The notes beneath the pieces are model-generated. The model did not search any database. It was not told the origin of the DNA and saw only the letters and a list, made by a program, of their open reading frames with translations. Both the position numbers and the translations under genes were made by a program. Below are positions 12,763-37,500 of a stretch of DNA of 64,000 bases, piece after piece; positions within the stretch are counted from its first letter, which is position 1; each line of letters opens with the position of its first letter. The DNA is from Acorus gramineus. Lineage: Eukaryota; Streptophyta; Magnoliopsida; Acorales; Acoraceae. The stretch spans positions 9,872,704-9,936,703 of the forward strand of contig CM060847.1 in assembly GCA_030737835.1 (NCBI GenBank), written 5' to 3'.

Positions 12763-13757
12763 ATGGTGCAATTCCATCTGTTTTGTTCAATTTTTAACAA
12801 ATTTAGATTTGAACCGAATTGAAACTGAATCGAAAACCCAAAATCGAACCGAATTGATTTTTGTTTGGTTAACCCAAACTAAAGTGAATTGAACTATTAA
12901 AGATAAACATATACATGCTCAATTATTTTTTAGGTTTTTTATTTTTAAATCCTCATGGACTACATGATTTAGTGATCGATCCTTCGCTTCTTCATATTTC
13001 AGTTTAAATCTTTATATTTAAAGGATATGTTCCTTTTAGTCTCTCCGAGATACTAAAAACAAAATTAAATAATTTAGTAATAGATCTCTCACATAGACTA
13101 ATAAGAAACATATCTTTATGTCTATGGTTTTACTTTTCTGTTGTGCCTTGTTTGATATCTATTTGCCCCCAGTTCAAATTTTGTAATTCGAATTTAGCTA
13201 TGAAATCGGGTAACAAACATCTATCTTTTTTCAAAAAAAAAAAAAAAATCTAGAGACTAAAATTGAAATATGAAGAAATGAGAGATCGATCACTAAATCA
13301 TATAGTCTACATAGACTAAAAAATAAAAAATAAAAAAACCCTTGTGTTTTTTTTTTCTTACTCAGTGTTGGTTGGTTAATACTTTTTTTTTGGAGGTTGG
13401 TTTACAACCTTACATAAATATATCAAAATGCTATGATTGATAATATAAACAAATATATTCATTTTTTTATGAATATTAATGATATAATAACAATATAAAT
13501 TTTAATATAAAAAAAATTATTTAAGTGTATTAATTATGAATAATTATGTGCCTAAATTTAATTTAATTCAATTCAATTAATTCAATTTTTTTTTTAAATA
13601 AAACAAAACATCAACCAAAATTGATCGAATCGGTTTATTAATTTTACCATCTATACCCAAACTAAATCATAATATTATTGACCCAAACCCAAAAAAATCA
13701 ATTTAAATCAATTTGAATCGGTTTGGATTTGATTTAACCGAACAAAGTTACACCCCA
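12763..13757. mobile_element. Probable hAT-like MITE hosting a nested hairpin MITE
   Basis: The outer parts are rich in AACCGAATTGA / TCAATTTGAATCGGTTT blocks that face each other in inverted orientation (about 12800-12880 and 13680-13745). Together with GGTG-like/CACC-like ends, these are typical of old plant hAT-derived MITEs. The outer boundaries are approximate because the ends match only partly. The middle is occupied by a separate inverted-repeat element at 12933-13341. Confidence 0.4.
12933..13341. mobile_element. Hairpin MITE nested inside an older MITE
   Basis: The left arm contains GGTTTTTTATTTTT, then GGACTACATGATTTAGTGAT and CTTCTTCATATTTCA. The right arm carries these blocks in inverted order and orientation, ending AAATAAAAAAACCC. 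The arms match over about 80 bases with few differences. No coding frame is seen. It interrupts the AACCGAATTGA-rich element around it and is therefore younger. Confidence 0.7.
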
Positions 13758-14274: not shown

Positions 14275-17200
14275 TCAATCGCCGAGCAAACAGAGGGGCT
14301 GCCGCATACTGAGCTCAGCCTTCAGCTTCGGAAAGCTCGATAGATCACTTGAGTTACTCAACACTTTCTGGATATGAAAATGAATTACATTAACAAACCT
14401 ATCAAGTAATAACGACATGGAAGCGCAAATGTATAAGAAGAATTTAGTTACCAGTGCAGCATGATGTGCTTCCTGCAATATATTTCCATCGACCTCCAAT
14501 CTAGCTATTGGGAACTCTGGAACATGTCCTGACTGTTTCTTGCCAAGCAAGTCCCCGGGGCCACGCAGGAGGAGGTCTGCGTTGGCCAGGTAAAAGCCAT
14601 CGCTTGACTTCTTGAGTACTTTCAAACGTGGCACGGCTGCTGCGGTAGACGTTATGAAAATGCATTTCGACTTCCTCTCTCCACGACCAACTCGTCCCCT
14701 CAGTTGATGAAGCTGAGCTATTCCAAACCTCTCTGCATTCATGACAACCATCATGGATGCAGTGGGAACATCAACCCCAATCTCAATCACTTGGGTTGAA
14801 AGTAGAATACGCGTTTCTCCGGATCTGAAATTTCGGAGTTGTTCATCTTTCTCCTCGCTCTTCATGCGCCCGTGTAAGAGCCCACACTGGTAACCCTTGA
14901 ACTTTCCAGATATGGAATCAAAATCTGCAGTCACAGCGCGAAGCTGTGGCAGATGCTCTGATTCATTGATAATTGGATAAACGAGGTACACATTTCCTCC
15001 TGTGAGTAACTCATCCCTTATTTTCTGGATGCATTACAGATCGATAAATATGAGGGTATTCAAAGGTAAGGCAAAATTTCAAAAGCATACATCTAATAAT
15101 GTAGAAAGCAAAACCTATCAATGAAGCAACATAGATATTAGCAGCAATATTTATGAAAATGTAATATAGCTTTTGGAAACTACGTTGTATTACAGAGGAT
15201 GATTTAATGTAATGTAATAGAAGAATGTTCCTATGGCATGGTGGGGAATATGCCTACAATCTGAATTCATATGTACAAAGGTAATCAAATCAGATAATGG
15301 TACATAAGAAAGGTAGGAGCCTAGGAGCGAAAAAAAAGGACCAAGATTGTAGGCATGTTAAAATGCGTTTAGTTGTCCTTTGGGTCCATATGATAGTGCT
15401 AACACTGGTTAGCAGGAACCTCCAGTGGTCCATAGGAGGTTTAGAGTCTATTAAGAATTATTATTGATGAAACTAATTCAATAAACTGTTAAGTACAGAA
15501 GTTTAACATCAAAATGTAAATATCACCTGATACATGTCTTCAAAACCGGTCTCATTGCCTTGAAGGATATGGACATCTATAGGCATTCTTCCAGGTGGTA
15601 GATCAGTAATCTACATTAGAAACCAAGAAAATCGCTCAGTATCTCCAAGCTAAAATTAATTGATGAGTTTACTTAAAAAACATGCTCAACAAATTATTAA
15701 ATGAAATTGTTTTCCAAAATATATAAACTCTAATAAACTATGAATGAACGCAATGAATTTGGGGATGATGAGTGGCAGACGTTTGGGAGTTTATTACTGT
15801 CACAGAGGAAGAGGTGAATGCATTCTCTCATGAAAAATAAAATGACCTCCCCAAGCATGTGTGGACTTTGATAGTTAAAATCAGCTGTGAAAGGCTTGTG
15901 GTAACAATCTCAAGATGTACAAGACCAGTAAACTTAAAGTGCACAGAGAATCCGCAACTTCTACTTTTTCACAATTAAAAACAAAACATTACAATAAAAT
16001 AAGGCCGCCACAAAAATACATGACTTAGACTATTTTAACAGTAGAAGCATATTCCATTTATGGAACTGAAAGGGCATGTAAAGTAATTACACATACCTGA
16101 GTAAGTGACATATCCCCATATAATGCCAAAGCAAGTGTTCTTGGAATAGGAGTGGCTGAAACAGCAAGCACATGAGGAGCCATATATGTTTTACCAGAAG
16201 ATGAGTCATCTGAAATTGTATCACTTTTAGAGCTTGCTGATACTGAGTATAACTGCAAACAAAAGAAGTCCAATGCTATAGGTGAAGCCAGATGGTAGAT
16301 TCCCAGTATGAACAACTAAATAAATAACCAATTTCAACACAGAATTGCCATAAACAGAAACAATAAACAAACTCTTATCCCATACATCCTGGAAAGGACT
16401 TGAGAAAAGTTTAATAACCAGCTATTCACCTAAATAGACCTCAAGAATCTGGTGAAGATCCTGGCTAAAATCACTCAGCAGGTAATATTTCAATACAGAA
16501 TTAAATAAACATACACAGGTGTCATGATTGCCTGAGCACTATATTACTGCCCCAAGCAATAGTCCCTACATGTCTTACCATGCAGCAATGGCGGCCTCAA
16601 TGCACTATGGCTCCAAAAGCCATCTTCAAGGGGATGGCTTTTTACATAGAAAATATTGGAGACCATGATTCAATTCATAGAAGATTGGGGATGTTATTGT
16701 GCGAGAGCTTCGTAGCTCAGGGTTTTTGTTTTGAGTTTTGCTTTTTGTCTATGGGCATTTATATCTGTTGAGTAGATTGGGTAAGATGCCTACCATTTTT
16801 TCAAAAAAAATAAAAATCCCTCAAAAGCAAATGCATTGTCAAAAAAAATGTCAAAGTTTATCTCATTTCTTCCTTCCCAGCATGCTGCTATGTGGGATAT
16901 CTCCCAGTGATAGCCCTTTTATATAAGATAAATGGAGGTCCATGATCAGGATCCGGTTTTGGAAAGAAGAGATAAGAGATGGATCATTTCTACTCTTCCT
17001 CAATTTAAGAAAGAAGTTTAAATTAGAGAAATAAAGAGGTCCAGATCCCTGATATTTTGCCCAATTCTGGAAAAAACAGAGACAAAAATAAAAGATGAAG
17101 AAAAAATAGGGGGCTTTATACCTTTTTCACTTATAATTTTATTTATATATAAGAATAAAGAAGGATTGGATCCCGTAACTTGCTGCCCAGTTTTGAAATA

Positions 17201-20200
17201 AGAGGAAGAAGAGTGTTATCTATTATATGCTTGACATTACAATAGAAAAAAGAAGTGCAATTTATGATAATCTATGAAATTTAATTAGATAATCTGTTAA
17301 GATGAGAAACAAATGAATTTATATAAAAAGACCGCCTCAGGCTCACAAGCATAGCCAGAGGTGCTTGCCTCAGTGAACCCCCCCCCACATCACTGACCAT
17401 GTCCAGTGTGGTACTATGGGGTGGCCATGCTAAACCTCACCACCATGGTGACCACCATGGAATTTCAATGTGGTATTCATTGTCAAAAAGAATGACAGCA
17501 CAAAGGTAGAAGAAGATTGATTTATCAAAATTATCTCAATATGTATGAATTTTTAATCAGTTATAAAATATAATACTAAAAATTTGCTTTTGCAAAAGGA
17601 ATGCAGCAATAAAATGCTGAGCAGAAGACAGTGTATCACCTTGCTGTTGAACCTTCCTCTCTGGACTACACCAAAACGCTGTTGCTCATCAATAATAGCA
17701 ATTCGTAAAGCAGAAAACTCCACATTATCAGATATCAAGCTGTGTGTTCCAATGACCAGTGCAATATCTCCATCAGCAAGGCCCTGGCAAATAACAAAAA
17801 TCAGAAAAAGAAAAGACAGACCAGCATCCATATCTACAATAGACAACCAACCAAGAAGCAGCATGCCTTACGAATTAATCGTGACTGCTTTGAAGGGGTT
17901 GATCCTGTCAGTAAAGCAACAGAAGGTTTGCATTGACCATTTCCAACGTTCTCCAGCAAAGACATCAGGTGCTCATAATGCTGGACTGCAAGTAGTTCAG
18001 TTGGTACCATGAAGGCTGCCTGAGCAGATATTGAACAAAATGATTACCTGATATAGATACTAATGATAGCTTGATGTGCTCGCTCAACTCACTAAACATG
18101 CAGAAATTTATCTTTCATTTCAATGAAATCTAAATATAACTCTTAATTTATTGATAAAGTAAATGAGTCAAATTACATATATTTACACACAGACATATCA
18201 GCAAACCTGATATCCTGAGCCAACGACCTCCATGCAAGCTAGGAAAGCGACCACAGTTTTTCCACAGCCAACATCCCCCTGGAAAAGAATAATTTTATAC
18301 CATATTTAAATCACTAAATATCACTATTTAAACTATTATAAGTGTATCAATCAATGAATAGCTATTTTTCACAAACTTGAAAGAAATGAAAAGATCAAAA
18401 AATTTCAATTATAATATGCAAGGCATAAATTTAAATTATGATATGATATGTAAGACACCAATGCTGTTCTTTTAGTTGACTCATTTTTGATTGCTTGGAA
18501 ATATCCTAATGTGTGCCTGAGATAAAAATTAGGGGATTCATGATGATATAGAAAATGAGAAACGAGAGGGCCTGATTACTGTTCAAATTCCTGTTTCTGT
18601 ACCAGCATTGGAGTGTAACCAATACTAAGAAGCAACACTGATGCAGTGACCCATCAGTTGTGTGTGATCAAGATCATTCCAAGCAAATATGTGGCCTGCG
18701 AGGGTAGTCAACAAGAAGGCCGATTTCAGACTTTTCCCATTATAGGAGGGATTTTCATGATTCGAAGTCCATTATTTGATAAAGGTGAATATGGCATAAC
18801 TTACCTCTAAAGATCCATAAAATTGTGGGACCAGTGGGATTCATGTACTGGGAAGCCATAGAGATACTCTGGCCTGCCCCCTCTCCATACCCAATAATAG
18901 ATGGAAAAACAACTATACCACATTGTGTTGAGGGAATGCCCCTGCTTTATCAGCACTCGTGTTTAAAAAAGAAATATATCCTTATCTCTCATCACCAACC
19001 CCCACCCCACTCCACCTCCACACCCCCCCCCCCCCCCTCCCCATTTTGAAGCATGCAAGTAAACTTTCTTTCTAGCACTTAATGCTGACAAAAAAAGATA
19101 ATATTGAAAAAATATCAAGACATGGCCCAAATTGAAATTATACCACGAGATTAGGATGAACAGCCTAGAATTCTAATATAGAGAAGCACAGACGGCATAT
19201 AATTGCATGATCACGTTGGATGGTCAGATAGCAGTAGGCTTCTCAAAAAAAATTACATTTTTTTTTTAACCAAAGGTGGTGTCCACCAATTTTATTGAAT
19301 TGATAGACTACTTGGTACAAAAAAGAAAGAGAAAACTAAAGAGGAGAAAGGGGTGGTTCATAAACAATGGACCACTCTTAAGACATAGAACATCACCGGG
19401 TCCCCTTACTCCACCCAGAAACACTCCGCTGTGATGGTGATCTGAGACTCAGCTTTCAAATCCTTAAGAAGGTACATAATGCTGAACCAAGTGTTATCCA
19501 CATTCCACATAGCACAATTTGTTTGAAACAGATTTTCATTTTGAATCTTCCATGTAGCTCAAAAAAATCACTGAACCACCCCCACGGGTACAATGTTTAA
19601 GTGTTTATGCATCTGCACGCTATCACACGACAGAACATTAAGACTATATAATCAGTGTTGTGCCAAAGGCTTCAAGAAATTTGAGATTGCCATAGAAAAA
19701 GTTCAACTAAATGAAAAATTAACTGATGGAAAAGATTATGTATGACAGGCGTCCAGATTGTGAGACACTGAATTAGGATGAAAGAATGAAGTCATTCCCC
19801 ACCCACCTCTATGTTTTTCATTGATATGATTGGAGGAGAGTTACAAAGAGGGTTCCAGGCTTATTGCAGTAAAATTTGAAGACTCAATATGGGGTGTAAA
19901 GGAGGGGAGGGGGGGGAGGGAGGTGGCTTATAGCACTAAACTTTGAAGATTCGGGGTGGTGGAGGCCAAGATGTCCACTCATAAATAAGTTAGATTATCT
20001 ACAAATAACACTAGAAAAAAAGGGGAAAAAAAAGGTGGTATCAACTGGTGTCCTGGTTTACTCTCACCAACCTTATATCAGCCTCATCTTTCTCTTTCAT
20101 TAAAGTCATGCTTCTCTTTCATTAAAGTCATGTTCATGCTCATGCCATGCAGTTATCCACTACATCAGGTCATATTCACAGAATAACTCAAACTAATAAA

Positions 20201-21305
20201 AGCAGGATGGGGATACAATTCTCTTGAACTAATAAATTAGACCTAGTTAGCCAGAAGAATACAGTTGATAAACTTATCAAATGACAAGGAAAGTAGATGT
20301 CACCTATCTCCTGGATTGTCTGTAAACATAAAACATCAATAAATAGTGGGCTGCAACAAGTTTTAAAAAAAAGGAATACCAAATGCCATTGAAAGCAGTA
20401 AAAGTTAGGATACTAACATAACTGTAGCGAACAAAAATGTCCCTTGCAAATTTTAAAATGATGATATGCTCGGAGAGCAAATCAATACATAAAAAGGGTA
20501 ACGTGGGTACAACTCGATCTTTTAATCCTCTAATCCTCGGTCTCCTTTGAAGAGTGTCTCGAGAATTACAACTTCAGAGATTTTTACAAGTTTGTGAAAA
20601 TTTAAAAGGAAGATGAAGAGGCTTGCGGTGCGTGATCCTTCGGGTCTTTTGAGTTTGAGCCTTATTGTTTAGGACCAGCGGTGCTTTGTTCTTCACCCTT
20701 CTTGGATTTTTTTGAACTTGTGATTTGATTTGAAGCCGCTTTTTCTTGATCTTCCCTTCTCTGGACTTTCTCCTTCGTGAACAAAGTGAAGATATTCTTC
20801 AAGAAGAAGGTGGAATCGAGGGAGAGTTAGTATTTCTCTCCCTTGGATTTTCTCCACACTTTTCTTTAAGAAGAAGGTGGAATCGAGGGAGAGTTAGTAT
20901 TTCTCTCCCTTGGATTTTCTCCACACTTTTCTTTTTCTTCTTCTTTGGCTTTCTTGACTTCTTCTTCTTTTGGTGGATTCTTCAAGAAGATGGTGCAATC
21001 GAGGAAGAGTTTGTATATCTCTCCCTTGGATTTTTCCCCACACTTCTTCTTCTTCTTCTTCTTGCTTTGGCTTTCTTCCTTCTCTCCCTTAGGCTTTTTT
21101 TTTGTTCTTGCCTTTCTTCCCCCTTCCCTTTTTTTTTTTTCTCTCTCCCCCCTCCCTCCTATTTATAGAGGAAGGGAGGGGTGGTTATAAAAGGTAATGG
21201 GTAGTTTTAGGGGGTGTGGGTAGTTAGGAAAATTTTTTGTTGACTTTTTCTTTATTTATTTATTGATTTGATTTGATTTTAATTAATTTTGACTAATTCC
21301 TTTTC

Positions 21306-21340
<35 letters not shown>

Positions 21341-24300
21341 AGGCAGGGCCAAATTTGGGCCCTGCCCTGGCAGGGCTCAGTGGGCCGGCCCAACAGGCCC
21401 GTTTTGGCCAAGCCCTTTTTTTTTTTTTTGTCTACAAATTGCCCCCCTCAAGGATGGATAAAAGAGTCCAAGGACGAATTTTGTCATCCTTGATTAATTA
21501 ATTAATTTATTTACTTTTATTTTTTTAATTCAAACTTGATTTCATTTACATAGGGATGACATAACTATTAAGTATGTTATGATGTTAAAATTTTAAATTT
21601 TGAATTTTGAATTTGATTTTATTTAGATATAGATGGCACAACTAAAATGTTTGTTGTGATACTCAATATTTCAAGTTTAAATTTTATCTGTTTAGATATA
21701 TATAAAAACTTATGGAAAAAGTGGCTATAAATAGGAGTTACTCTCTTTCACAAAACAATTAAATTAAATTAAAAGAGATAGAGAAGAAACAGTCAATTTC
21801 CTCAACAAAACCATCTTGAAGCCATTAGAGGTTAGTATATGTGAATATAGGAATTTTTTTATTTGATTTGATTTGTTTACTTCAAAGATAGCATGATGCA
21901 AACATAGATAATTCATGAATTTATGTTTTTTTGTTCATACTAAAGAGTATATGCATATTTATTCATTTATTTTATTATTATTATTACTATTATTATTAGA
22001 TTTTAAAAATAAAAAATTTATTATTATTAAAATCATTGAATGAATGCATGGCAGCAATCTTTGGATGAATGCATGAAGATCCACGTGGATCTTCATGTGT
22101 GGTTTACTACCATCAAATTTTTTTTTTTTTTTTTTTTAAAGAATCTCGGTGATTTATACACATCATAAGATAAATCTCAAAATGAATTAAATGATATCAA
22201 ATCTGATTTTATTAACATAGGGTCAATAGTTTTTTTTTTTTTTTTTTTTTTTTTTGAAAATGACAAAACTTCATATTAAATTGATTGTAATCAAAGATTG
22301 ATTTATTTATGGAGTTATTAAATCTGATTTATTATCATTGTTGTTCCTAATATTATTATGATTATTTTATCCTCTTTTTTTTTTTTTTTTTTAGAGCCCT
22401 GTATAGCAGGGCCGTTCTGGGCCCGGGGAAGCAGGGCCAAATTTTTTTATTTTTTTATTTTATTTTTATTTTTATTTGATACCTGTATTGTTTTTTTTGT
22501 AGATGACACGAAGGAGCTTCCGCGGTAGCATGTTTTCTCAAAATATCCAACCTTCGTCTGGCAAGGAAAATATAGCATACGTTCATCTTCCTTCTGATGG
22601 TTGGATCGTGGAAGAGGTAGTCAAAGGAGTCAAATATTTACTTTTTCCCGATGTGATGATTGCGCGACATGGGACAGTATCGAAAGAGAACCGTACGACA
22701 TTGTCGCGTCTGAGGCTGATAGTTCATGGATGGAATGATCCAGATGGTGTACAATTTGACCCCAGTCTGTCTATGCCATACATAAGCGAAAATATGCGTT
22801 CAGACAAAGAACCTCTTTCAGCTCATCCAAGACCTCTCTTATCACTTCCCTTTCATCATAATGAAGCGGAGAGTCATCCAACTCCTCTCATAGCATCTCG
22901 GATCTGCTCTCGTTCAGCTCGCTGGGGTGAGAGAATAAGGAGTCGAGGCGACATTCAGTATTTGAGCGGTTTTTGTGAATGGATGACTGAAGTCTATGAG
23001 GGGCTAGCAGCTCGGCAGGAGACCAAAATTTTTAGCCATTTTATGGAGCCAGCATGTTTCGAATATTGTCGTCCTGATAGTATGTACAGAGCTCTTTGCG
23101 AACTTTGGTGCCCAGAGACGAATTCATTCGTTACAAGTGATGGAGAAATTAGCATCTCAATTTTTGAGATCAGCTTGATTTCTGGATGCCCCTTGGGAGG
23201 AAGCTATTATGAAGAGTTCGTGGTTGACTTACAGCATATGATGGAGTTACCTGAATCACGTATTTGCTTGCTTTTGTATCGCGCATATGCTATTCTTGCT
23301 GTCACACGCCGTTCTGAAAGAATCAGGCATTCCGACTGGATGGAGTTTTGGTATAGAGGTGACTTTCGCTTTCCAAATCCTTTGCGATCGCATATAGTAA
23401 GGAATGCGAAGGTAAAGCGGGCTTCTGATATCAAGAGACCATTACTCGTTTACAAGGGCGAAAAATGTTCGCAATACGGAAAGATGGACCCCTTTGATCT
23501 TCTTAATGTTCATAAGGGAAGCAAAGAGGGCAAGGCAGTATATGAAGCAGCCTGTATTGTTCTTTTCCTCTGCAGATTTGCACTGCCTCAGAGCGGAGAC
23601 TTAATTCGTCCGGGCACTTTTGTTTCTGCTGCACATATAGTGACCGGGTTCCATTACAATTTCACGTCTGCCATCCTTTGTAGCCTGTATAAAGGGTTAT
23701 CTCGTACTTATACAAGTTTGTCGACACTATCTTCCGCTCGTGGTGAAATCGGTCAAGCTACATCTTATTGTCCTCTCCATTACCTTTATGGTTGGATTGG
23801 GCTTCATTTCAGGAAAGGAGTATATGGTATAGTGAAATCCAAAAGTAGATTCCCCTTTTTGCCCAGCATCGCTGGTGCTCTAAATGCTTATATTGACTGG
23901 GAACCGTCCTTCTTTGAGCCTCGTGCTAATTGCGTCGCACAAATGAAATAGGCTTCGATTTCTGTCCCAGAAGATCAATTATGAATTTTGGCGAAGTTAG
24001 TCTTCTCGATGACCAAGATATGCCGCTGGATGCCTTTTATTTTTCTATCAGCTGCAGACCAGGGTATCTGATTTATCGTCGTGGAGACGTAATTGATGTG
24101 GAGTCTTATAACCCACACCGGTTTGCACGACAACATGGTTTTGGACAAGACACTCCTGGAACTCCAATACGATTAATAGATCCAGTTGGTCCTTCACGAG
24201 CAATTCAGTTTTTCATGGCCCTTTTTAGAAGGAATGGATTGAGCTGGTTTACACCGCCGGGTTCTTTGACAGGCTCGAAGAATGCACCTTCTATAGAATA

Positions 24301-27300
24301 TGACAGATGGCTTCGTGAAAAGATAAGACCCATGCTTGCTGATTTCTCGATTGAAATCCTTTTGGAGAGTGAAAAAGCTTCTTTCGAATACAACAAGAGT
24401 GAGGGGATAAGAGATCGCCAGCGCATCAACCCTGGTCCTTTACGGTTTAGATCACCTCAAACTTCTAAATCGGGAGATGTTGATATAACCACTAAAGACC
24501 AACAATCATCTTCTCATATTGCCAGAGATGGTGATGTCCCCAAGGTATTTACTGGGAAGCGAAAGAGATTGGCGAAACGATGCTTACAAATTCAGGCGGC
24601 ACCATCCGTTTTATTAGAACCAACGCCACTAATCAATGCTCCTCCAGTGACTACCTCAGAATTGATTCCCAAAGATGTGTCATCCCAGGGAATTGCTTTA
24701 GAGGTCGTCAGCGATGGTGAATCTGCATCAGGAGCTGTTGATGAAGTTCCTACTGCGAAAAGGATGGGTAAATTTTATTTTATTTTTTTGACCCTTTATC
24801 CTTCTTCTTTTTTTGTGTGCACAGTTTCGCCTGAGCATATGTCTAGCTTGGGCTTACCCATTCCTTTAGACGATCTGGACAATATTGGCTTTGATAATTG
24901 GGACGGAGGTCGTGACTTTTCCATGTTACGGGACTTTATAGAGAACAGCCACCATGACAATGATGCAGAAGGTGCATCGAAGGCTGCTGCTGATATGACT
25001 GAAGCAGAGTCTCAAGCAGTACATGTTGAAATTCAGCTTGATGCATCTGAACCAGTTGAAGAGATTTCACCAGAATTTTCAGTGGTAACAAAAAACAATT
25101 CGTGTACAAGAGAAGATTTTAAGCGTTCTACGGCGCCTGTGATGCTTGGACTTTGCCGTCAATTCATTGCTGCTACTCTTGAACCTTACTTGCATGCCGG
25201 TTTCACTGCTTTGAAGAACTGGTGGAGCTCGGCGGGAATATTTTTTTGCGAGCAACTTCAGAAGTTTGATGTAGATGATCATGCTTTTGCTACTCACATA
25301 GAGTCATTCCTTTCTGACTGTGATGCCTACCATACCGCTCGAGCGACGCTCACTATGAATGTTGTTTCAGACACAGATGGTGAGCTTTCCTCCCTTGGTG
25401 AGGAAATCAGATCTTTCACTGAGGGTCATGATGTAGCCATGTCTCAAGTTGTTGTTGCCAAGTCAAAGCTCGATACTGCAAAGTCGAAGGAAGTGGCCGC
25501 TAGAATTATATTTGAAGAGGCCCAGGCTCATGTCACTACTGCATCTAAAATTGTTTCTATGAAGGACAATGCACTAAATACTTGGGATATTGCTTTGACT
25601 GACAAGCAGAATAAACAGGATCATCTTCGACAGTTGAAAAAGGCGAGGGTTACGGACATCCGCAATGTTGACGTCAGGAGAAAGGAGTTGATGCAGCGCC
25701 TTCAGAACTTTAGCTCCATATATTAGCTTTTTTTTTTTGTGTATATCCTCTCTTTTTTTTTGTTATGAATTTGTAATAAAAAATTGTGAATGATGATTGA
25801 TGGTGATTTATTTATTTTTTTTTGTTCAAATTAAACCTGATATAATTTCTTAGGCTATTTGCATGAAGATTTGATAAGTGATGATTTTTTTGTCTGGACT
25901 GAACCTGATGTAACTTCTCAGGCTGCCTACGTAACCCCCTTACTTAAGGGATCAAGTCACACGTAATTGTTTTTTCTTTTTTTTTTATCCTTCCAACAAA
26001 GCCAGGCCGGGTTGGAACCTTTTTTTTTTTTTTTATGGATAGTACCTTTTGAGGAACTTTCCATTGATTGGACCAAGTTGAGTCCCTCCAGGAGTAGTTA
26101 ATAGGTAAGCACCATTGGTGTAGACTTCTTTGACAATATGGGGGCCATCCCATTTAGCATCGAACTTCTTCCCTGCTCTATGGGACATGATGATAGGCCG
26201 TTTAACCGCCAACACAAGATCGTCCTTTTGAAAGGATCGAGGACGCACTCTCTTATTGAATGCGCGAGAAAGACGTGCCTGGTAGCATTCGATGCGTTGT
26301 TGTGCTTCAAGTCGCTTTTCATCTAAAGCTTCCAGTTCCGTTAGACGAAGCCGAACGTTGTCATCTTGAGTAAGCCCTTCTTGAATAGCAATTCTTAATG
26401 AAGGAATTTGAAGCTCGAGAGGAAGAATGGCTTCTACTCCGTATACAAGAGAATATGGGGTTGCTTGTGTAGGAGTTCGGAATGATGTACGGTAAGCCCA
26501 AAGAACTTCGCCTATACGTTCATGCCAATCCTTTTTCGACTTGGAAACTACTTTTTGTAGTAGTTTACACAAGGTCTTGTTGAAGGCTTCCGCTAATACA
26601 TTGGCTAGGGCATTGTACATCGTTGAGCGCCTTTGTATGATCTTGAACTTGGCACAAAATTGGTCCATGGCAGCATTTTTGAATTGTTTACCATTGTCTG
26701 TCACAATGAAGCGAGGAATGCCATATCGAAAAATAATATTATCTTGGATAAAGTTAATGACCGAATTCCGATTGACTTCTTTGAGAGGAATCGCTTCAGC
26801 CCATTTAGAGAAGTAATCTGTTGCGGCTAGGATATAGCAATGTTGTTTAGATGACTTTGGCAGGGGTCCGACTATGTCGAGTCCCCAACTATCGAATGGC
26901 CATGAAGCAACAGTAGGATGTAGGGGCTCTGGAGGCTGATGAATATAGTCTCCATGGAATTGGCAAGCTTGACACCCTTTTGAAAATTTCATGCAGTCTT
27001 TAACCATAGTAGGCCAATAATAACCCATTCTTTTGATATGAAGATGAAGCTTTGGTTAGATTGATGTGTGCCACATATACCAGAATGTGCTTCTTTGAGA
27101 GCTGTTTCTGCTTCTTGCCTTAAACATCTCATCAAGACGCCATCATAACCACGACGATATAACTCGTCGTTGAAATGAAGGAACCTCGATGCACGACGAC
27201 GAATATCAATTTTGTGTTTTGCATCATCTGGAAGCCTGCCGCGAGCAAGATAATTTATCATTGGTTGCCTCCAATCTTGCTCTTCTGTCATAAATACATG

Positions 27301-30300
27301 GACCACATCTGTTTGTACTGGAATTTGATTGCTTGTATCATCTGTGACAACCACCCACTTGCGATAAAGAGGGATGACCAAGCAGTTAGTGTCCAGGAGA
27401 GTAAGAGTAGTAGCCAAATTTGCCAGAGCATCTGCTTGTCGGTTGAGGCCCCTTGGAACATGTTGAATAGTGGCATCATCAATAATATGGAACAATGTCA
27501 ATGCCCTTGTATGATACGGTATCAAGTCTTCTTTATTAACTTGATATTCCCCCATAATCTGACAAATAACAAGCTTTGAATCACCATGAATTTGGAGTTC
27601 TCGAATAATTCCTGCCCCTGCCGCTTCACGTCTTACAGCGCCGTCAAAGAACATCTTCCAAGATGGAACAATGTCAATAGAAAGCACTTCTTCGTCAGGA
27701 AAATTTTCAGTCAATTCCCATTCAGCAGGGATTGGATAATCTGCTAGAAAGTCGGCCAATACTTGTCCTTTTATAGCCTTTTGAGAGACAAAGATGATTT
27801 CAAACTCACTCAGAAGGAGAGCCCATTTTGCTAGCCGTCCTGAGAGAACTGGCCTGGACATAATATACTTGAGGGGATCTGCTTTAGAAATAAGTCTGAT
27901 CGTGTGTGCGAGCATGTAATGCCGAAGTTTCTTCGTGGTGAAAATGAGTGCAAGACACATCTTCTCAATTGGCGAATAGTTTAATTCGGCACCAATAAGA
28001 GTACGACTGAGATAATAGCACGCCACTTCTTTGCCAATATGATTTTCTTGAGCAAGGAGTGCCCCGATAGAGTGTTCTTGAGCACTAATATATAGAATAA
28101 GGGGTACACCAGGAACTGGAGCAGATAGAACTGGTGGCTTTAATAAATATTGTTTGATGCTATTGAGGGCGTTTTGGCAAGTAGCATCCCACTTGAAGAT
28201 GGTATCCTTCTTCATGAGTCGGCTAAAGGGGTGACACCTTCCAGCCAAATTTGAAATAAACCTTCTGATGTAAGCCAAGCGACCTTGTAGACTTCTAAGG
28301 TCATGTAATGATTTGGGTTCGGGCATGTTGAGAACAGCATCAATTTTGGATTGATCTATCTCAATGCCACGATGCCTAACAATGAAGCCAAGAAATTTCC
28401 CCGAAGTGACTCCAAATGCGCATTTGAGCGGGTTCATTCGAAGTTGATATCTTCGTAGACGATTGAAAATATGTCGAAGATCATCAAGGTGAGAGGTCCT
28501 TTGTTTAGACTTCACAACGAGATCATCAACGTAACATTCAACCGTTTGGTGGAGAATATCATCGAAGATCTTTTGCATGGCGCGCTGGTAAGTAGCACCT
28601 GCGTTCTTCAAGCCAAATGGCATCACTTTATAGCAATAGATGCCTTTTGGAGTGCGAAAAGCTGTGAGTTCTTCATCTTTGGGTGCCATTCGAATCTGAT
28701 TATAGCCAGAAGATCCATCCATGAATGATAGCGCTTCATGACCAGTTGTCGCATCCACCATAAGTTCAGTAATTGGCAATGGAAAATCATCTTTAGGACA
28801 CGCATTGTTCAGATCTCTGAAGTCTACGCATATCCTGATTTGTCCATTCTTCTTTTCTACTGGTACGATGCTCGAGATCCAAGTAGGATATTTGACCTCT
28901 CGGATGAAGCCGGCTTCAATTAGCTTGTTGACTTCATTCTCGATTTGTGGGATTAACTCGGGTCGGTAGCGTCTTTGCCCTTGTTTAATAGGGCTAGCGC
29001 CATGCCGAACAGCAAGTTGGTGTACAGCAATTTTAGGATCCAATCCTGGCATCTCTTTATAAGACCATGCAAAGACGTCTTTGTACTCCTGAAGAAGTTT
29101 AACATATGCAGTTTCTTCTTCTAGAGCTAGAAGTGCACTAAGGAAGGTTGGGCGTGGATCTTCTTCGGTGCCCAAATTGACTTCTTTTAAGTCATCTACG
29201 GTGGATCGTTCTCTTTCATCAAGATCAGGCTGTGCGTCCAGCAATTCGTCGTCCGAATGAGAAGTATTCTCAATGTTTGGCTCGTCATGAATGGAATTGT
29301 GGTTGACGGAGACAACAATGGATGTAGAAGAATCATCCATAGGGGCATCAGAAGGTGGACGAGTAGTGATGACTACTGTCCTTGGCTTGACACAAGAAGG
29401 ATCATTCGATGCAGACACTTGAATGGTAGTAAGCTTCGAGGAGAACGGATACATAGGGCTATTTGAGGATGTCGTAAGTTGTCGACCCTCTTTGTGATTG
29501 CCCCCAAGTCGGCGACGTTGTCGGGTGGGGCGAGTGGGCTCCATGGTTGTCTTCGAAATGGGAGCGATCGGTCCCAAACGACTGAATACTGACTGTCGAG
29601 TCGATGGAGCATGGACAACCTTGGATTTCGTCTTTGACTTTTCAGGCCTTCGGGATACTGAAGTAACCCTTTGTTTGGGGTTTTGTTGTACAGAATGAAG
29701 CTCTTGAATGACTTCATCATGCCCCCCAAGCCTAGCTTGATGTTGTGCTTGTCTGCCTCGTCTTCTTGTACGCCTGGATTTTGACTGAGTATTGTTGATG
29801 GACGCCGATGTTGGATTAACTTGAGGTGATTGCGACTCGGACGTGGAAGAATTGTTCGTCATTTCCACTTGAATATGATTAGAGGAGAGGTCTCCTCTGA
29901 TGGCTGACTTAACGACGATTGGAGTTGGCACAAAGCCCAGGCCACGTCTGGATATAGGCATCTTTTCTCCGGCATGAATGAGGTGAGCTTGAGTCTTGGT
30001 CATCCCGCACGGGATTGTTTTTGGGGGAAGCGTCCCTAGAGATGCCATATCGCTAATGTGGAAGCCCGCCTTTTGTAGCAATTTTGACGACTTCTTGCTC
30101 CAATGACCTTCTGGTACGAAGCCTGACAATGGAGGAATTGTCACTGATGTAGGTGTCAAGGCATGCAAGGGCAAAATCATCTTTTGCTGAAGTGCGACAA
30201 TGTCAGCTTCGGTGAATAATGACTGCAATTTCGTAGCTGCTGATGTGAATAGTGGTTGTTCTGATGTACGATGCGCTTTGGAAATGAGGCGTAACACAGG

Positions 30301-33300
30301 GCCAACTTGAGCATTGGTTGGAGGATGTGGATTGATTCCCCGTACATGCTTGATTCGCATCTTTCTGTTAGAAGTAGATGTAGTTTGCTCTTCAACATTT
30401 TTCTTGATGCCGTGTGGAGTTTTCATCGGCAATGCTTCGGCGACTACACCCGTTGCTTGATAGAATTTAGCATCAGCAAGATGTATTTCTGTTTTGGTGA
30501 AGGGTTTGCTGTCAGCAGCGACACATTTTTCCACACCGTCTTTATAATATTTGAAGCATTGGTGCCAAGTAGAGACGACTACCCCATTTTCATGTAGCCA
30601 TGGCCTCCCCAATAGAAGACGATATGAAGTTCTACAATCAATGACATGGAAGAGAATCATTGTATCAAGTTCGCCAATTGAGAGCTTTAGGCGTATGCCA
30701 ATAGTAGATTGTCCGGCTTGGTTGAACCCTTGAATAACCAATTGGCTTTGAGAAAGCTCACTGGTTGTAATGCCTAATTGTTCCATGGTCTGGACAGGCA
30801 TGATGTTGACAGCAGAACCACAATCTAGCAATATGCGAGTTATTTGCTTCTCTCTGATGTATCCTGACACATAGAGGGGCCTATTGTGAAGGCGGACTCC
30901 AAGTTGCAGGTCTTCATCAGAGAAAGATATGGTGAAGTTGCAAGACGGTGATGCCCCCTCTCCTTGATTGGCTTCAGATTCTCTCTTATAATCATCAGGG
31001 TTGGTCAAGACTGCTGCCATGGTGAGGCGTGCTTCTTATGCAACGCTTCAATGAGAGGTAGATGAAGAATAGCCTCCTGGTAGGAAGCAGAATGATCTTC
31101 AGTAGCTTGTGGGCTGACGAGGGCCTTTTCATCATCGGAATGGTCAACTTTGGAAGACTCCGCCAAGCTAGAGGTAGTAGGGAGCATTTCAACGCTCTTT
31201 ATTTCTGAATCATGGACCTCCACCATATAGCAAGTCTCCGTGGGAGAGGTTGAAAAAGAACTGGGAGGGAGTGTTTCAAGGGCGTCAGCTTCAATGGAAT
31301 CTGCCAGAGTAGGTGGACCCGGGAGATTCTTTTCAATAAGATCTGCAGGGTCTGTCTGGGTTGCTTTGGATATTTGCCTTGTAGCCATCCTCCTTACTTG
31401 GGGATCTGGGAAACACGACTCCTCATTGCGCATCTTCATAGTCCATCCTTCTTTGTCGATAAGGTCTCCCTCCCTTGGAGTTTGGGATTCCAATGCTTCG
31501 CCTCCCCACCCATCAGGGGCAGGATGTACTTCTGGTTCTGGCATAGGAGTGACATCAGTGTTAAGAGGAAACAACTCTCCCCTGAAGCAGCTCGAGCAGG
31601 GAGAGATGGAGCATTTGGGGCAAAGCCTTCTGAAATATTCTTCTTCTTTAAGAGTTCTTTCGTCAATCTTGAGACGATGTGTATTCCTCCCGAATGCTGA
31701 AACTTGATATTCATCCCGAGAAATGCGTTCCAGATGTGGATCATATCGCATACGAGCATGTGTGCAACCACAAGTCGGCAATGGCTTTGGTGGATCAAGC
31801 TCCTTTGGGATTTGAACAGATGAGAAGAAACCGAAGGAGACTGATGTTGTATTTGCTGATGCGACATCTCCCAAGTCAAGCTCAATTTTTCCCTGACGTG
31901 CAAGATCCATCACCTTCTCTTTGAACACGAAGCATTGCTCAATAGGGTGGCTAACTACCCTATGATATTTGCAATATAGCAGGTCATTGACACGATCTGC
32001 TTGTTCAGGCCTCTTTGACTCGGGGAGTTCAATCATCTTCTCTTTGAGTAACTGATCGAACATAGCGGAGACTTCGGAGTCTGGGAAAGGGTACACCTTG
32101 GCTTTAAGTTCTTCAAGGGTCATTCGTGGCGCTTTCTTATGAGAGGAGCCTGGATCAAGTTTGCTTTTGTCTGCTGCACCACTCGTCCCCCATGGTTTTG
32201 AGGAAGACGCGATATTGACGACATTCACATGCTTCTTCTTAGGCGCAGATGCTTTGTCTTTGTCATCTTTTGCAAAGTCCTTCGGCTTGAAGTCTCCGTG
32301 AGTGGCCAGGCTAATCTCCATATCGTGCGCTCGAGTAGCCAATTCTTCAAAGGTATGAGGTTTGATTCCCTTGAGAATATAGAGAAGGCCCCAATGCATG
32401 CCTTGGATGCACATTTCGATTGCTGAAGTTTCTGACAATCGATCTCGCGAATTAAGAGCAAGATTCCTCCACCGGTCAATGTAATCGATCACCGATTCTT
32501 CCTTGCGTTGTTTAACTGCAGCCAACTCCACCATGCTGACAGTACGGCGAGTGCTATAGAAGCGAGTGAGAAATTCTCGTTCTAAAGCCTCCCAACTGTC
32601 GATTGATGCGGGCAAAAGATCGACGTACCAATCGAATGCATTCCCCTTTAGGGAGCGCACGAATTGCTTCACCATCAAGTCGCCATAAGTGCCAGCATTG
32701 TTGCAGGTTTCGATGAAATGGGCAATGTTGTTTTGGATTGCCCTTCCCATCAAAATGCTGAAATTTTGGTGGTTGGTATCCCGATGGAAAGCGGAGCTGC
32801 TGGATACGTTGAGTGTACGGCTTTGAATATCCTGCTGAAGATTGGACATATCCACCATTTTGAGTGCGGACCATGTCTGCCACTAATGACTGTAATTGTT
32901 GTACAGTCATAGCCGGAGCAACTGAAGCTTGAGACGCCGCGAGAACTGTCGTTGGAGGAATGACCATCGATTGCTCAATGGGCAAAGTTGATGCAGGGAC
33001 AGCATTTGGTGACACAGGTATCTGATTCGAGACGCCGGTATCATCCTTCGAGCCCGATTTTTGGAGAAGAATACTAATTTGACGGTCCTTCTCCATCATC
33101 ATCTGCGCCATGGATTGATTGAGCTGCTTAATTTGCTCCTCGAGTTTGGACATCGAGGGATGGTTGTGAGTGCGCCTTGCCCCGGCGTGGGCCCATCGGA
33201 TCTGGCGTTGGCGTCGTCATCGGAGATGTAATTACGACGAATTACAGTCTCCACTTCATCTTCGGTACGCGATACTCGAACATGAGCACCAAGATCATTT

Positions 33301-34528
33301 GAATCGTCATGCACCTCTTGTGCTGTTGCATTATTGGCATTCTTCATCGTACCTTCGTCTTCCATTTCTGGAACGAGGGTTGATGTCGTAGCTCTAGCTC
33401 GCCTAGTGTAGACGCGCATGCCAGGAGTGGTGACTGGTATTGCATCGTGCGCCTCCTGGAAAAGATTTTCCAAGCCTCCTTGTTGAAGTGAAGTAGGGTC
33501 AACAAGAGGCGTTTCGCTTGCAGGAATGGCATTGGTGTTGGCTTCGGCCATGGTTGTACTTCGAACGCCTTAGAAGAAGGAAGTTCGAGCTTGACGGAAA
33601 TGAGGGATGAGAGGAGATGATGGTCCCACCGGGCGTGCCAAAAATCTGTAGCGAACAAAAATGTCCCTTACAAATTTTAAAGATGATGATATGCTCGGAG
33701 AGCAAATCAATACATAAAAAGGGTGACGTGGGTACAACTCGATCTTTTAATCCTCTGATCCTCGGTCTCCTTTGAAGAGTGTCTCGAGAATTACAACTTC
33801 AGAGATTTTTACAAGTTTGTGAAAATTTAAAAGGAAGATGAAGAGGCTTGCGGTGCGTGATCCTTCGGGCCTTTTGAGTTTGAGCCTTGTTGTTTAGGAC
33901 CAGCGGTGCTTTGTTCTTCACCCTTCTTGGATTTTTTGAACTTGTGATTTGATTTGAAGCCGCTTTTTCTTGATCTTCCCTTCTCTGGACTTTCTCCTTC
34001 GTGAACAAAGTGAAGATATTCTTCAAGAAGAAGGTGGAATCGAGGGAGAGTTAGTATTTCTCTCCCTTGGATTTTCTCCACACTTTTCTTTAAGAAGAAG
34101 GTGGAATCGAGGGAGAGTTAGTATTTCTCTCCCTTGGATTTTCTCCACACTTTTCTTTTTTTTCTTCTTTGGCTTTCTTGACTTCTTCTTCTTTTGGTGG
34201 ATTCTTCAAGAAGAAGGTGGAATCGAGGGAGAGTTTGTATATCTCTCCCTTGGATTTTTCCCCACACTTCTTCTTCTTCTTCTTCTTCTTCTTGCTTTGG
34301 CTTTCTTCCTTCTCTCCCTTAGGTTTTTTTTTCTTGCCTTTCTTCCCTCCCCCTTTTTTTTTTCTCCCCCCCCCCCTCCCTCCTATTTATAGAGGAAGGG
34401 AGGGGTGGTTATAAAAGGTAATGGGTAGTTTTAGGGGTGTGGGTAGTTAGGAAAATTTTTTGTTGACTTTTTCTTTATTTATTTATTGATTTGATTTGAT
34501 TTTAATTAATTTTGACTAATTCCTTTTC

Positions 34529-34562
<34 letters not shown>

Positions 34563-37500
34563 GGCTGGCCTAGGCAGGGCCGTTCCTGCCAAGGCAGGGC
34601 CAAATTTGGGCCCTCCCCTGGCAGGGCTCAGTGGGCCGGCCCAACAGGCCCGTTTTGGCCAAGCCCTTTTTTTTTTTTTTTTTTTGTCTGTCTACAATAA
34701 CATTATAAAAGAAAACATCAACCTAAAGCTTAATAGTATTCTTAATGATGTGGATCAAGCGGTATAAAGAAGATTGCTTAAATAAAACTTATACCTGTAA
34801 AAGGCGATTCATGGGTACTGGCCTTCTAAGATCCCATATTATTTCTGAAGCTGCATTTAATTGGCTAGGAGTGAGGGAGTATGGAAGAGCCTTCAACAAA
34901 TTCTTTGTAAGACTGGACCAGTCTTCAATGCTAACAATATTCAGTTCATGTTTTCTGTATTTATCTAACAATCCTTCCTTTTCGATCCGTGTTCCAAGAG
35001 CTTCAAGCATTTGAAACAATCTGCCCAACTGAAAACATAAATTGAAGAAAGTCAGATGTGTTTTAGAATTCATAAAACCAACCAAATACACAAAAAAAAA
35101 AATTATATCAAGACAGAATTAAAAATTCACTGTATAAAGAACAATTCTCCTTGAACTTTAGAAATGTTTTACAAAGTACCATGGGCATAAATAATTGCTA
35201 CCAGTGGCTAAGGCAAACCAAACTTTGGTTAGTCGGCTAGCACCCCTCCTCTCGTAAAGGAGGTCAGGGGATCAAACCTAGGGGGGCACCAATCTTCAAA
35301 AGAATAAAAAATGCCCAGTCATGTATGATATGAAGCAGGTACACTTCATGAGATACATTATTAAGAACATTTCCAATAGAATGATTGCTTATCCACAATT
35401 TCGCAGCTAGCAACTAGCTTATGATTTACATATAGTACAATTTGTATATTCTATAGCATAAGGAAACAAAATCACTACGTCTCATTTTACAAGATTGAAT
35501 ATCATGTCAAACACACAACAGACATCAAATCCAAGCACCCTTCTTCTTTTAATTCTTTCTTTTCTTTTTCATTTTGATAAAGGCACAGCCTTCTTTCTTG
35601 ACAAACCCAATTTTTCAGAGGAAAATTAAGGTCTACCATCTTCTTCTTTTTTAAATGTCCATTTGATTTCCTTGTATAATTACACTCCAGTTTATTTCCT
35701 CGTAAATTACACTTAGGCAACTTTTTTTATTCCATCCCCAGCCCTCATTGGGAACTACAAAATCTAGAATTCCCTATTGATTTATCTATTAAAACAGATT
35801 TTACTTAAGTAAAAACACAATTCTATAAGAGAGAACTACCTTCTGCAACATGTGCAATTTAAAGGTTATTCCACATAATGTTTTCAACATTTCCAACACA
35901 TGTTTCTCACAAATTTTCCAAATAGTCATGGATCACAGTATGATCCTGATGTACACCCTTCACCCAAATAGCTTAATTCCTTAAATAAACATATTCATTA
36001 ATCTCTTCATCACTTTACATTGTTGAATCAATCACCATACTAGCAATGCAATTATGTTATCCTAGTTATACTAAATTTCCATCCCTTTGCCTCCAAGTCA
36101 TTTCTCCAAGTTACCATTCGACCCTATGCTTATCTCACTAACCAACATTCTAATCTACAAACACAACACAGGAAGACATCATTCCAGAAGAAAGCATCTA
36201 ACATGATATAAATAAATCATTTAAGAAAACCACGCATTGAAAAACAGTTACCTGTATGTAAAAGAACTCATCAAATATTAACCTTCTACGTGCTAAATCA
36301 GCATCATTCAAATTCATTGGACAGTGAATTCTGACATATGCCTGCTTAAACAGGGAGAAAGGAACATTAGTTCTCCATTGCAAAATCCAAGTACCTGGTT
36401 CATCATAGCATTTGACTGTAAGTCTGTAACCATGACAAAAGTTTCACAGTAATATATTAATCAAAAACCTTGGTGGAAATATAACAATATCAATATGTCT
36501 GTACAGATTTGAGAAATTTAATCAGAAAAACAATTTTCTAGTACCACAATAACAAAAAACAATGTTGGATCATTGCTTTATGGAAGATGAGAACGTGAAC
36601 ACAACAGCTCAGCCAGTACACTGGAAATGTTAGTACCTAGGAATGACCCATTTTTTTACCAAAAAAATGCGGATAACACAGCTATACAGATATATGTGCA
36701 ACAACCATTTCTAAGAAATTACATCAAATCTCAGCTTTGATTAATTAAGAAAGTATGTTGTAGTTCATAATTTCAAAGCAATTATTTGAGAGAAGATAAT
36801 ATAAAGAGAATAATCATTACAATCCATCAAAGAGCACAAATTTAAGATATATAGTCAGCATTTTCCCCTCAGGGCAGTTATATTCAACCCATTTTATTGC
36901 TATCCCAACCCATTTTCTAATCCACCCAGCTCAAATTTGAAAATCTACAACCCCACCCTGCTATATATATCAAACTTTATACTGTGCAACCCTACCCCAT
37001 TAGATTTTTCCTTTCTTTGACTCTCTCTCCCTCCGTCAGTTACACCACCTCCTCCGCGGCAGAGTTGATAGACGGGTTGCTCCGCCCAACTCCCTCCAAT
37101 TATTCAAACCCCGGGAGGCTCACCAGCTCTGTCAAGTCCCAGTACTCGCAGGAGACGGACTTGTCAAGATCGGTGTTTGAAGAGGGAGAGGATCAAGGCG
37201 GCTGAAGGGAAGAAGATGTAGTGAAGGATGGCGAACTCGTCAATCGGCGACGTTGAAAATGTCGGTGCCGAAGAGGTCGACGACAAGGGTGGAGATGTGA
37301 TTGTTGATGGCAAGGGAGCGGAGGACATTGCGGAGGGAGGGGAGCGAGCAGGAGAGGGAAATGAGGGTCTTGATCTTGTCGTCAGAGGGGACACTGTCGA
37401 GAAGGGAGGAGGGGGGGAGAGGGTCCGCTCCAGTGAAGATGGGACGAGTTGGTGCTTGTTTTTCTTTGTTGTTGCTGCTTGTCCTTGGATGGGGTGGGAC

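Follow-up and report, generated by a model that had tools for sequence, protein, structure and literature searches.

We analysed a window of 64,000 nucleotides from the genome of Acorus gramineus (C1:9872704-9936703 of the 398.6-Mb genome; positions below are those of the window), which contains a Ty3/gypsy long terminal repeat (LTR) retrotransposon of the Tat lineage. The element lies on the minus strand, and between its pol region and its 3' LTR there is a gene on the opposite strand for a plant mobile domain (PMD) protein. A first-pass annotation of this DNA had ascribed to the gene a TATA box at 21725-21734, a leader without ATG, a splice donor at 21831 and an acceptor abutting the start codon, and had read these as a private promoter with a leader intron. 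We found all four features in those places (Table 1). The leader from 21760 to 21830 contains no ATG, the donor reads AG/GTTAGT, and the acceptor, ...TTTTGTAG, ends at 22502, directly before the ATG at 22503; an unspliced leader would carry 18 ATGs. When the 1066 bp upstream of the gene were subjected to 2000 dinucleotide shuffles, the box CTATAAATAG turned up in 0.05% of them, the looser pattern TATAAATA in 14%, and TATAWAW in 85%. The donor pattern AGGTNAGT, in which N is not C, was expected 0.022 times in these shuffles and a pyrimidine-tract acceptor at any position 0.3 times. By itself, the TATA box is weak evidence; the ordered set of features, together with its conservation, is not.

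This conservation was read from other copies of the family. A DNA search with the first reading frame of the gene gave at least 44 matches, of which at least 19 besides the window were near full length at 93-99% identity. Upstream sequence of up to 1400 bp was taken from 29 loci, the window included; the other matches were fragments, repeated hits to a single locus, one C-terminal piece (L033) or unfetched, and the two older relatives L059 and L060 were read separately. The TATA box is exact in 28 of the 29 loci, the donor AGGTNAGT is present in 27, and the GTAG acceptor and the ATG are each present in 28, so that the comparison the first-pass annotation had called for supports its proposal of a private promoter with a leader intron. 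The distance from the TATA box to intron 1 is held at 101-106 nt in the 27 loci that have both, while intron 1 itself varies from 129 to 954 nt. Among 23 aligned copies, an island that runs from the promoter through the leader exon and donor into the start of intron 1 has substitution levels of 0-5% in windows of 30 bp, with gaps of at most 1%, compared with 2.6-43% per window outside it, and DNA similar to the block 21600-21920 was found at 40 places, window included. We also compared substitution rates in 17 of the 19 full-region copies, omitting two with truncated 3' parts. Substitutions amounted to 0.8% in the promoter, 3.2% in the TATA-leader stretch, and 1.7% on the donor side. The corresponding figures for synonymous sites were 4.8, 3.9, and 4.4% in the three coding parts, and the remainder of intron 1 reached 16%, partly inflated by T-runs. 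Promoter positions are thus slower to change than synonymous sites.

The island could instead serve the sense strand, with a role in genomic RNA replication, packaging or 3'-end formation, the TATA box and splice signals being incidental to it. Its distance from the 3' LTR is 211-480 bp, and copies that lack the PMD gene retain it, both of which would suit such a role. We consider this quite unlikely, since the fixed spacing of TATA box and donor, the acceptor placed exactly before the ATG and the ATG-free leader in 25 of 28 loci suit a gene on the plus strand, and since the acceptor is retained separately from the island across introns of such different lengths.

Other features of the promoter DNA were also recorded. 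A tandem pair of diverged 77-bp units (21536-21685) lies just upstream of the antisense TATA box. The 13-mer CTATAAATAGGAG has a single plus-strand site in the window, the antisense promoter itself (21725-21737), and also occurs on the minus strand in both LTRs (21156-21168 and 34380-34392), where an LTR TATA box would sit. The window copy has no CpG in 21600-21916, where 4.6 were expected (P 0.006 by shuffling). This lead was dropped as weak, because a comparable block in other copies has 0-3 CpGs, and CpG is scarce in the LTR and intron 1 as well.

In the region between the 3' LTR and the end of pol (21437-26040), the only plus-strand stop-free stretches of at least 80 codons are 22503-23951 and 23930-25726, and the minus strand has no open frame longer than 83 codons. 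The first of the two stretches matches the Pfam PMD family (PF10536) over 22503-23948 (E 6e-12, profile positions 9-188, 45.8 bits against a cut-off of 34.9). From 23930, the other frame gives a weak match to profile positions 273-294 (E 0.014, below the cut-off). Thus, the two frames hold successive parts of one PMD, which indicates a single protein interrupted by a frame break in the window copy. In another copy, the PMD runs through a single open frame (profile 16-294), and 4 of 20 loci have an exon 2 whose frame stays open all the way from the ATG to intron 2. The PMD protein with a coiled-coil tail described in the first-pass annotation was therefore confirmed as to its domain, and heptad periodicity was found in the tail (P 0.000-0.006 in 3 of 13 windows tested), but the window copy has a frame break near 23930-23951, which that annotation had not noticed, and so does not encode the full protein and is at best a relic. 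The motif GKRKRL is present in 18 of the 20 full-region loci, at a basic stretch that we take to be nuclear-localisation-like. AlphaFold modelling of the window's two open frames gave structures too poor for use (mean predicted local distance difference test scores of 32.6 and 33.3), a search of solved structures gave no match of note (one at E 0.38), and no relatives were found in viral contigs.

The gene also has a predicted second intron, within the coding region, which the first-pass annotation had overlooked. Its GT...CACAG pattern recurs in 19 of 20 loci with lengths of 33-85 nt, 15 of the 19 not multiples of three. In all four copies with an open exon 2, the phase of the donor demands the one frame that is open past the acceptor; one of these four meets a stop 104 codons beyond it. 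In the window, this intron is 57 nt and so in frame by chance, which is why it appears to a reader as part of one open frame. Downstream of the tail, 14 of 17 copies have retained the AATAAA signal at 25775, which had likewise been overlooked, and one of the remaining three reads N there. The integrase stop codon at 26033 lies beyond this signal, so the predicted mRNA would overlap the untranslated 3' part of the sense RNA and not the pol coding sequence; an antisense overlap with pol, as had been suggested, is not borne out for the intact gene.

Table 1. Features of the antisense PMD gene and of the retrotransposon that carries it (window positions)
Feature	Position	Strand	Basis
TATA box CTATAAATAG	21725..21734	+	exact in 28 of 29 loci, window included
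Predicted non-coding leader exon 1	21757..21830	+	start placed ~30 bp past TATA box
Conserved island: promoter, leader exon, donor, start of intron 1	21647..21916	+	alignment of copies
Predicted intron 1 (leader intron)	21831..22502	+	donor, acceptor, length variation across loci
Exon 2, PMD; frame broken near 23930-23951 in window copy	22503..24767	+	Pfam PMD
Basic stretch KRKRLAKR	24557..24580	+	sequence
Predicted intron 2, coding	24768..24824	+	recurrence of GT...CACAG, phase
Exon 3, coiled-coil tail and stop codon	24825..25726	+	open frame, heptad periodicity
Poly(A) signal AATAAA	25775..25780	+	retained in 14 of 17 copies
Ty3/gypsy LTR retrotransposon of the Tat lineage	20423..34696	-	LTRs, flanking ATAAC, Pfam domains
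3' LTR	20423..21436	-	alignment with second LTR
Pol: protease, reverse transcriptase, RNase H, second RNase H-like domain, integrase; two frames	26033..31020	-	open reading frames, Pfam
Gag; three overlapping frames	31005..33551	-	open reading frames, Pfam
Primer binding site, 18 nt complementary to end of tRNA-Arg(TCT)	33623..33640	-	
5' LTR	33647..34696	-	LTR alignment

Among the close copies, pooled ratios of nonsynonymous to synonymous polymorphism (pN/pS) were 0.45, 0.34, and 0.68 in the three coding parts, as expected if the signal is diluted by neutral changes that arose once the copies had inserted. Three older relatives were also compared, of which two match at 72-75% DNA identity and the third at 79%, and all carry stops. 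They gave lower ratios of nonsynonymous to synonymous divergence (dN/dS) for the part before the frame break, with values of 0.21 (440 codons), 0.23 (402 codons), and 0.29 (138 codons). These ratios show that the protein sequence has been under purifying selection across subfamilies. In one relative, 21519-21746 can be aligned at 70% identity, with a coding dS of 0.83, and the exact TATA sequence is confined, in these comparisons, to the family of the window element. Another older relative, L060 (C2:3155600-3157500), has two promoter-like blocks in tandem, one far from and one near the start codon, with altered TATA boxes.

The ordinary host-gene look of the locus, with its own promoter, introns and poly(A) signal, is also what would be seen if the element had recently captured a host PMD gene that plays no part in it. 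We hold this to be very improbable, since the gene is found in a multicopy family and in the older relatives under purifying selection. A protein search, in which 88 of 310 candidates were scored, gave at least 81 matches, nearly all of them at loci known from the DNA search; two weak matches outside the tally of known loci were at C2:6999300 and C2:12016389. A published tree also sets the PMDs of Gypsy elements in clades of their own, A1 and A2 (PMC5418596).

Copies that have lost the PMD gene were likewise missed in the first-pass annotation. Ten loci lack all or part of it through deletion, and one more was judged by coordinates. Four of these (L035-L038) have a common internal deletion that joins 23020 to about 25226 at a AGCTCGGC repeat, and a fifth match, at C69:1025106-1025624, stops at that query position as well. 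Of the four, three have also lost most of intron 1, yet retain the TATA box, donor and acceptor. There were 11 promoter-bearing loci without the start of the PMD gene, of which six were fetched. Five of these have lost the whole stretch from intron 1 up to about 25.8-25.9 kb; in the sixth, exon 2 was deleted between the introns, which leaves the intron 1 donor and the intron 2 acceptor. This last locus (L064, C8:16993100-16995250) thus holds the two splice sites in one intron, and a product consisting of the coiled coil only is conceivable. The existence of such deletion copies indicates that the gene is not required in cis, being either supplied in trans or not needed.

The deletion copies bear on whether the antisense transcript, and not the protein, is the functional product, pairing with the 3' part of the genomic RNA and feeding small-RNA silencing or limiting copy number. 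Such a transcript would complement the 3' part of the sense RNA, and the PMD-less copies retain the TATA box and donor. In five of the six PMD-deleted copies, no AATAAA was found downstream within the approximately 2 kb fetched, so antisense RNA could reach pol, though only in such copies. A dual role has also been proposed in print (PMC7264820). We nevertheless regard a transcript-only function as unlikely, because the dN/dS values above reflect selection on protein, and the conserved intron and phase would serve translation.

Several observations weigh against the locus being a functional gene with its own promoter. The window copy is frame-broken, and exon 2 is not open to intron 2 in 16 of the 20 loci, window included. 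Intron 2 is short compared with most plant introns, and measures only 33 nt in one copy; with most of its copies this short, splicing may be inefficient and two protein forms are possible. The leader carries an ATG in 3 of 28 loci. The intron windows at 22247-22306, which are outside the island, are also well conserved (2.6-3.2%), and since the copies are closely related, the conservation must in part reflect recent common descent. The TATA box is altered in two of the older relatives, to TATCAATAG in the one with the alignable promoter and to TACAAATAG with a second block, CTATAAACAG, in another, and the third can be aligned only from 22642 on. Moreover, all six PMD-deleted copies that were read also keep the TATA box and donor. 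A wide comparison of these six with 11 PMD-bearing copies had pointed to relaxed promoter constraint where the PMD is missing (Fisher P 0.002, distinct changes), but the signal stemmed from a T-rich stretch after 21850 and was discarded. Within 21647-21845, copies with and without the PMD showed no difference in promoter constraint on distinct changes (P 0.65; P 0.05 for all changes).

The retrotransposon itself is flanked on either side by ATAAC, its target duplication. Its two LTRs have TG...CA ends and differ at 15 of 1007 aligned bases, which, at the plant rates that we assume, would correspond to roughly half to one million years since insertion. The gag-pol region of the window copy is split into several frames, with Pfam matches for gag, reverse transcriptase, RNase H and integrase and a protease match below the cut-off. 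The two LTRs, the target duplication and the position of integrase after reverse transcriptase and RNase H place the element in Ty3/gypsy. The mark of the Tat lineage, a second RNase H (aRH) that lies between RNase H and integrase in angiosperm clades (PMC6317226), is represented by an RVT_3 match between RT_RNaseH and integrase, an assignment made by domain order. Ogre elements are marked by a PMD extra open reading frame (ORF), in 57% of elements, and a tRNA-Arg primer site (PMC6317226, PMC9289625). The present element has a Pfam PMD and a primer binding site matching tRNA-Arg(TCT), but does not have the gag-protease and reverse transcriptase-integrase of Ogre as two ORFs approximately 274 bp apart; protease and reverse transcriptase share a single frame (26989-31020), and gag ends within the overlap at 31005. 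Its antisense ORF between pol and the 3' LTR recalls Retand, in which TRP28 is found in the antisense ORF of 97% of clusters (PMC11963269), but Pfam gives only a PMD in this ORF and no TRP28. Because marks of Ogre are mixed with a Retand-like layout and one mark of each fails, we leave the subclade open and do not call the element Ogre.

Helicase and RecG domains were found at 14275-14991 (Pfam). Two further pieces, at 17553-17864 and 34789-35091, we take from their sequence to be RecG, the latter without a Pfam match. The element therefore appears to be nested in an intron of a helicase gene of RecG type that shares its strand (14275-35091), in which case the PMD gene would also be antisense to that host gene. 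No Rfam family was found in 20-35 kb. Elsewhere in the window, an inverted repeat at 12927-13338 (93-nt arms, 78% complementary, 226 nt between them) is perhaps a small transposon, and a minus-strand frame at 49023-49718 with a SPARK domain (E 1e-8) is probably a host gene.

MULE transposase-PMD elements, published for grasses and Amborella, are mobile carriers of the PMD that occur in this genome as well, with the difference that their PMD adjoins a MULE transposase. At least 163 PMD matches were found in the genome, and the best of them (G000, L001-L008) adjoin MULE transposase sequence where examined: Pfam MULE was matched in L005 (E 2e-15), below the cut-off in L003, and not in the piece of L008 tried. 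The MULE-adjoining PMD scores 180.7 bits in Pfam, compared with 45.8 for the window PMD.

The gene resembles antisense genes already described in Tat elements (Grande and Retand; PMC7264820, PMC11963269), the existence of which the first-pass annotation had mentioned. Like gene23 of the maize element Grande and the additional ORFs of RIRE2 and Silene Retand, it is antisense and lies between pol and the 3' LTR. Gene23 has its own upstream promoter and a nuclear protein product (PMC7264820), and the window gene likewise combines an antisense position with a conserved upstream promoter sequence. In contrast, the antisense ORFs of Retand are mostly TRP28 (PMC11963269) and not PMD, and introns go unmentioned in the available text on the Grande and Retand ORFs (PMC7264820, PMC11963269). 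With the extra ORFs of this domain in Ogre and further Gypsy elements of plants (PMD-A1 and PMD-A2, the clades named above), the gene shares the PMD, a likeness of domain; the available text gives neither the orientation nor the gene structure of those ORFs. The Arabidopsis proteins MAIN and MAIL1 also have the PMD in common with it, but are products of host genes in clade PMD-C; their part in silencing, mentioned in the first-pass annotation, is documented, in that they are needed to silence transposable elements, partly via MORC1 expression (PMC9899485, PMC7156037, PMC5418596). The DOWN motif CATGCAGTTT of promoters targeted by MAIN and MAIL1 (PMC9899485) is absent from both LTRs and from the antisense promoter. 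For PMDs that MULE transposons have captured, an anti-silencing role has been published as a speculation (PMC5418596). The literature already included PMD extra frames in Tat elements, PMD clades exclusive to Gypsy, the Grande antisense gene with its own promoter and silencing by host PMD proteins (PMC6317226, PMC5418596, PMC7264820, PMC7156037, PMC9899485, PMC9289625, PMC11963269, PMC11728184, PMC12786077). An intron-bearing antisense PMD gene was not found in the available text of the literature on PMDs, retrotransposons and antisense genes (PMC9289625, PMC10673657), and an earlier report of introns may exist. What appears to be new is the combination of PMD, antisense orientation and introns in one gene, since the PMD frame and the antisense gene with its own promoter have each been published.

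We think it probable that this is a self-contained, intron-bearing accessory gene with a private promoter, placed antisense between pol and the 3' LTR of a Tat element, and that its product would most likely be a nuclear regulator acting in trans. RNA polymerase II would start approximately 30 bp past the TATA box, without dependence on the LTR. Removal of intron 1 would then strip the upstream ATGs and bring the start codon to the exon junction, and removal of intron 2 would fuse the PMD exon to the coiled-coil exon in a transcript ending near 25.8 kb. In the genomic RNA, the splice signals of this antisense gene would be present only as their complement, so that introns and promoter would be copied intact through the RNA stage, whereas a sense-oriented gene could lose its introns. 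The product is predicted to act in the nucleus, regulating expression or silencing of the element, and action in trans is the most likely mode because copies without the gene exist in numbers. As for the kind of regulation, our preference, of low confidence, is for competition with the host silencing pathway of MAIN and MAIL1. A more elaborate scenario, doubtful as a whole, is that of a trans-acting counter-silencing gene on a host-style promoter, with introns shielded by antisense placement, whose PMD-coiled-coil protein would compete with the host PMD/PP7L complex. PMD-less derivatives that keep the promoter and donor would live off this gene, and most of those read might send antisense RNA into pol, making for an arms race within one family.

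PMD frames have been catalogued in many plant Gypsy elements without a role being assigned to them there, while host PMD proteins help to silence transposons. Within one 399-Mb genome, the present family brings together a conserved promoter, two introns that are also conserved, a protein under selection, and sister copies with and without the gene. It thereby makes it testable how an element expresses an accessory gene while its LTR is silent and what the PMD of a transposon does. Antisense placement may, in addition, be a simple explanation for how such accessory genes can afford introns.

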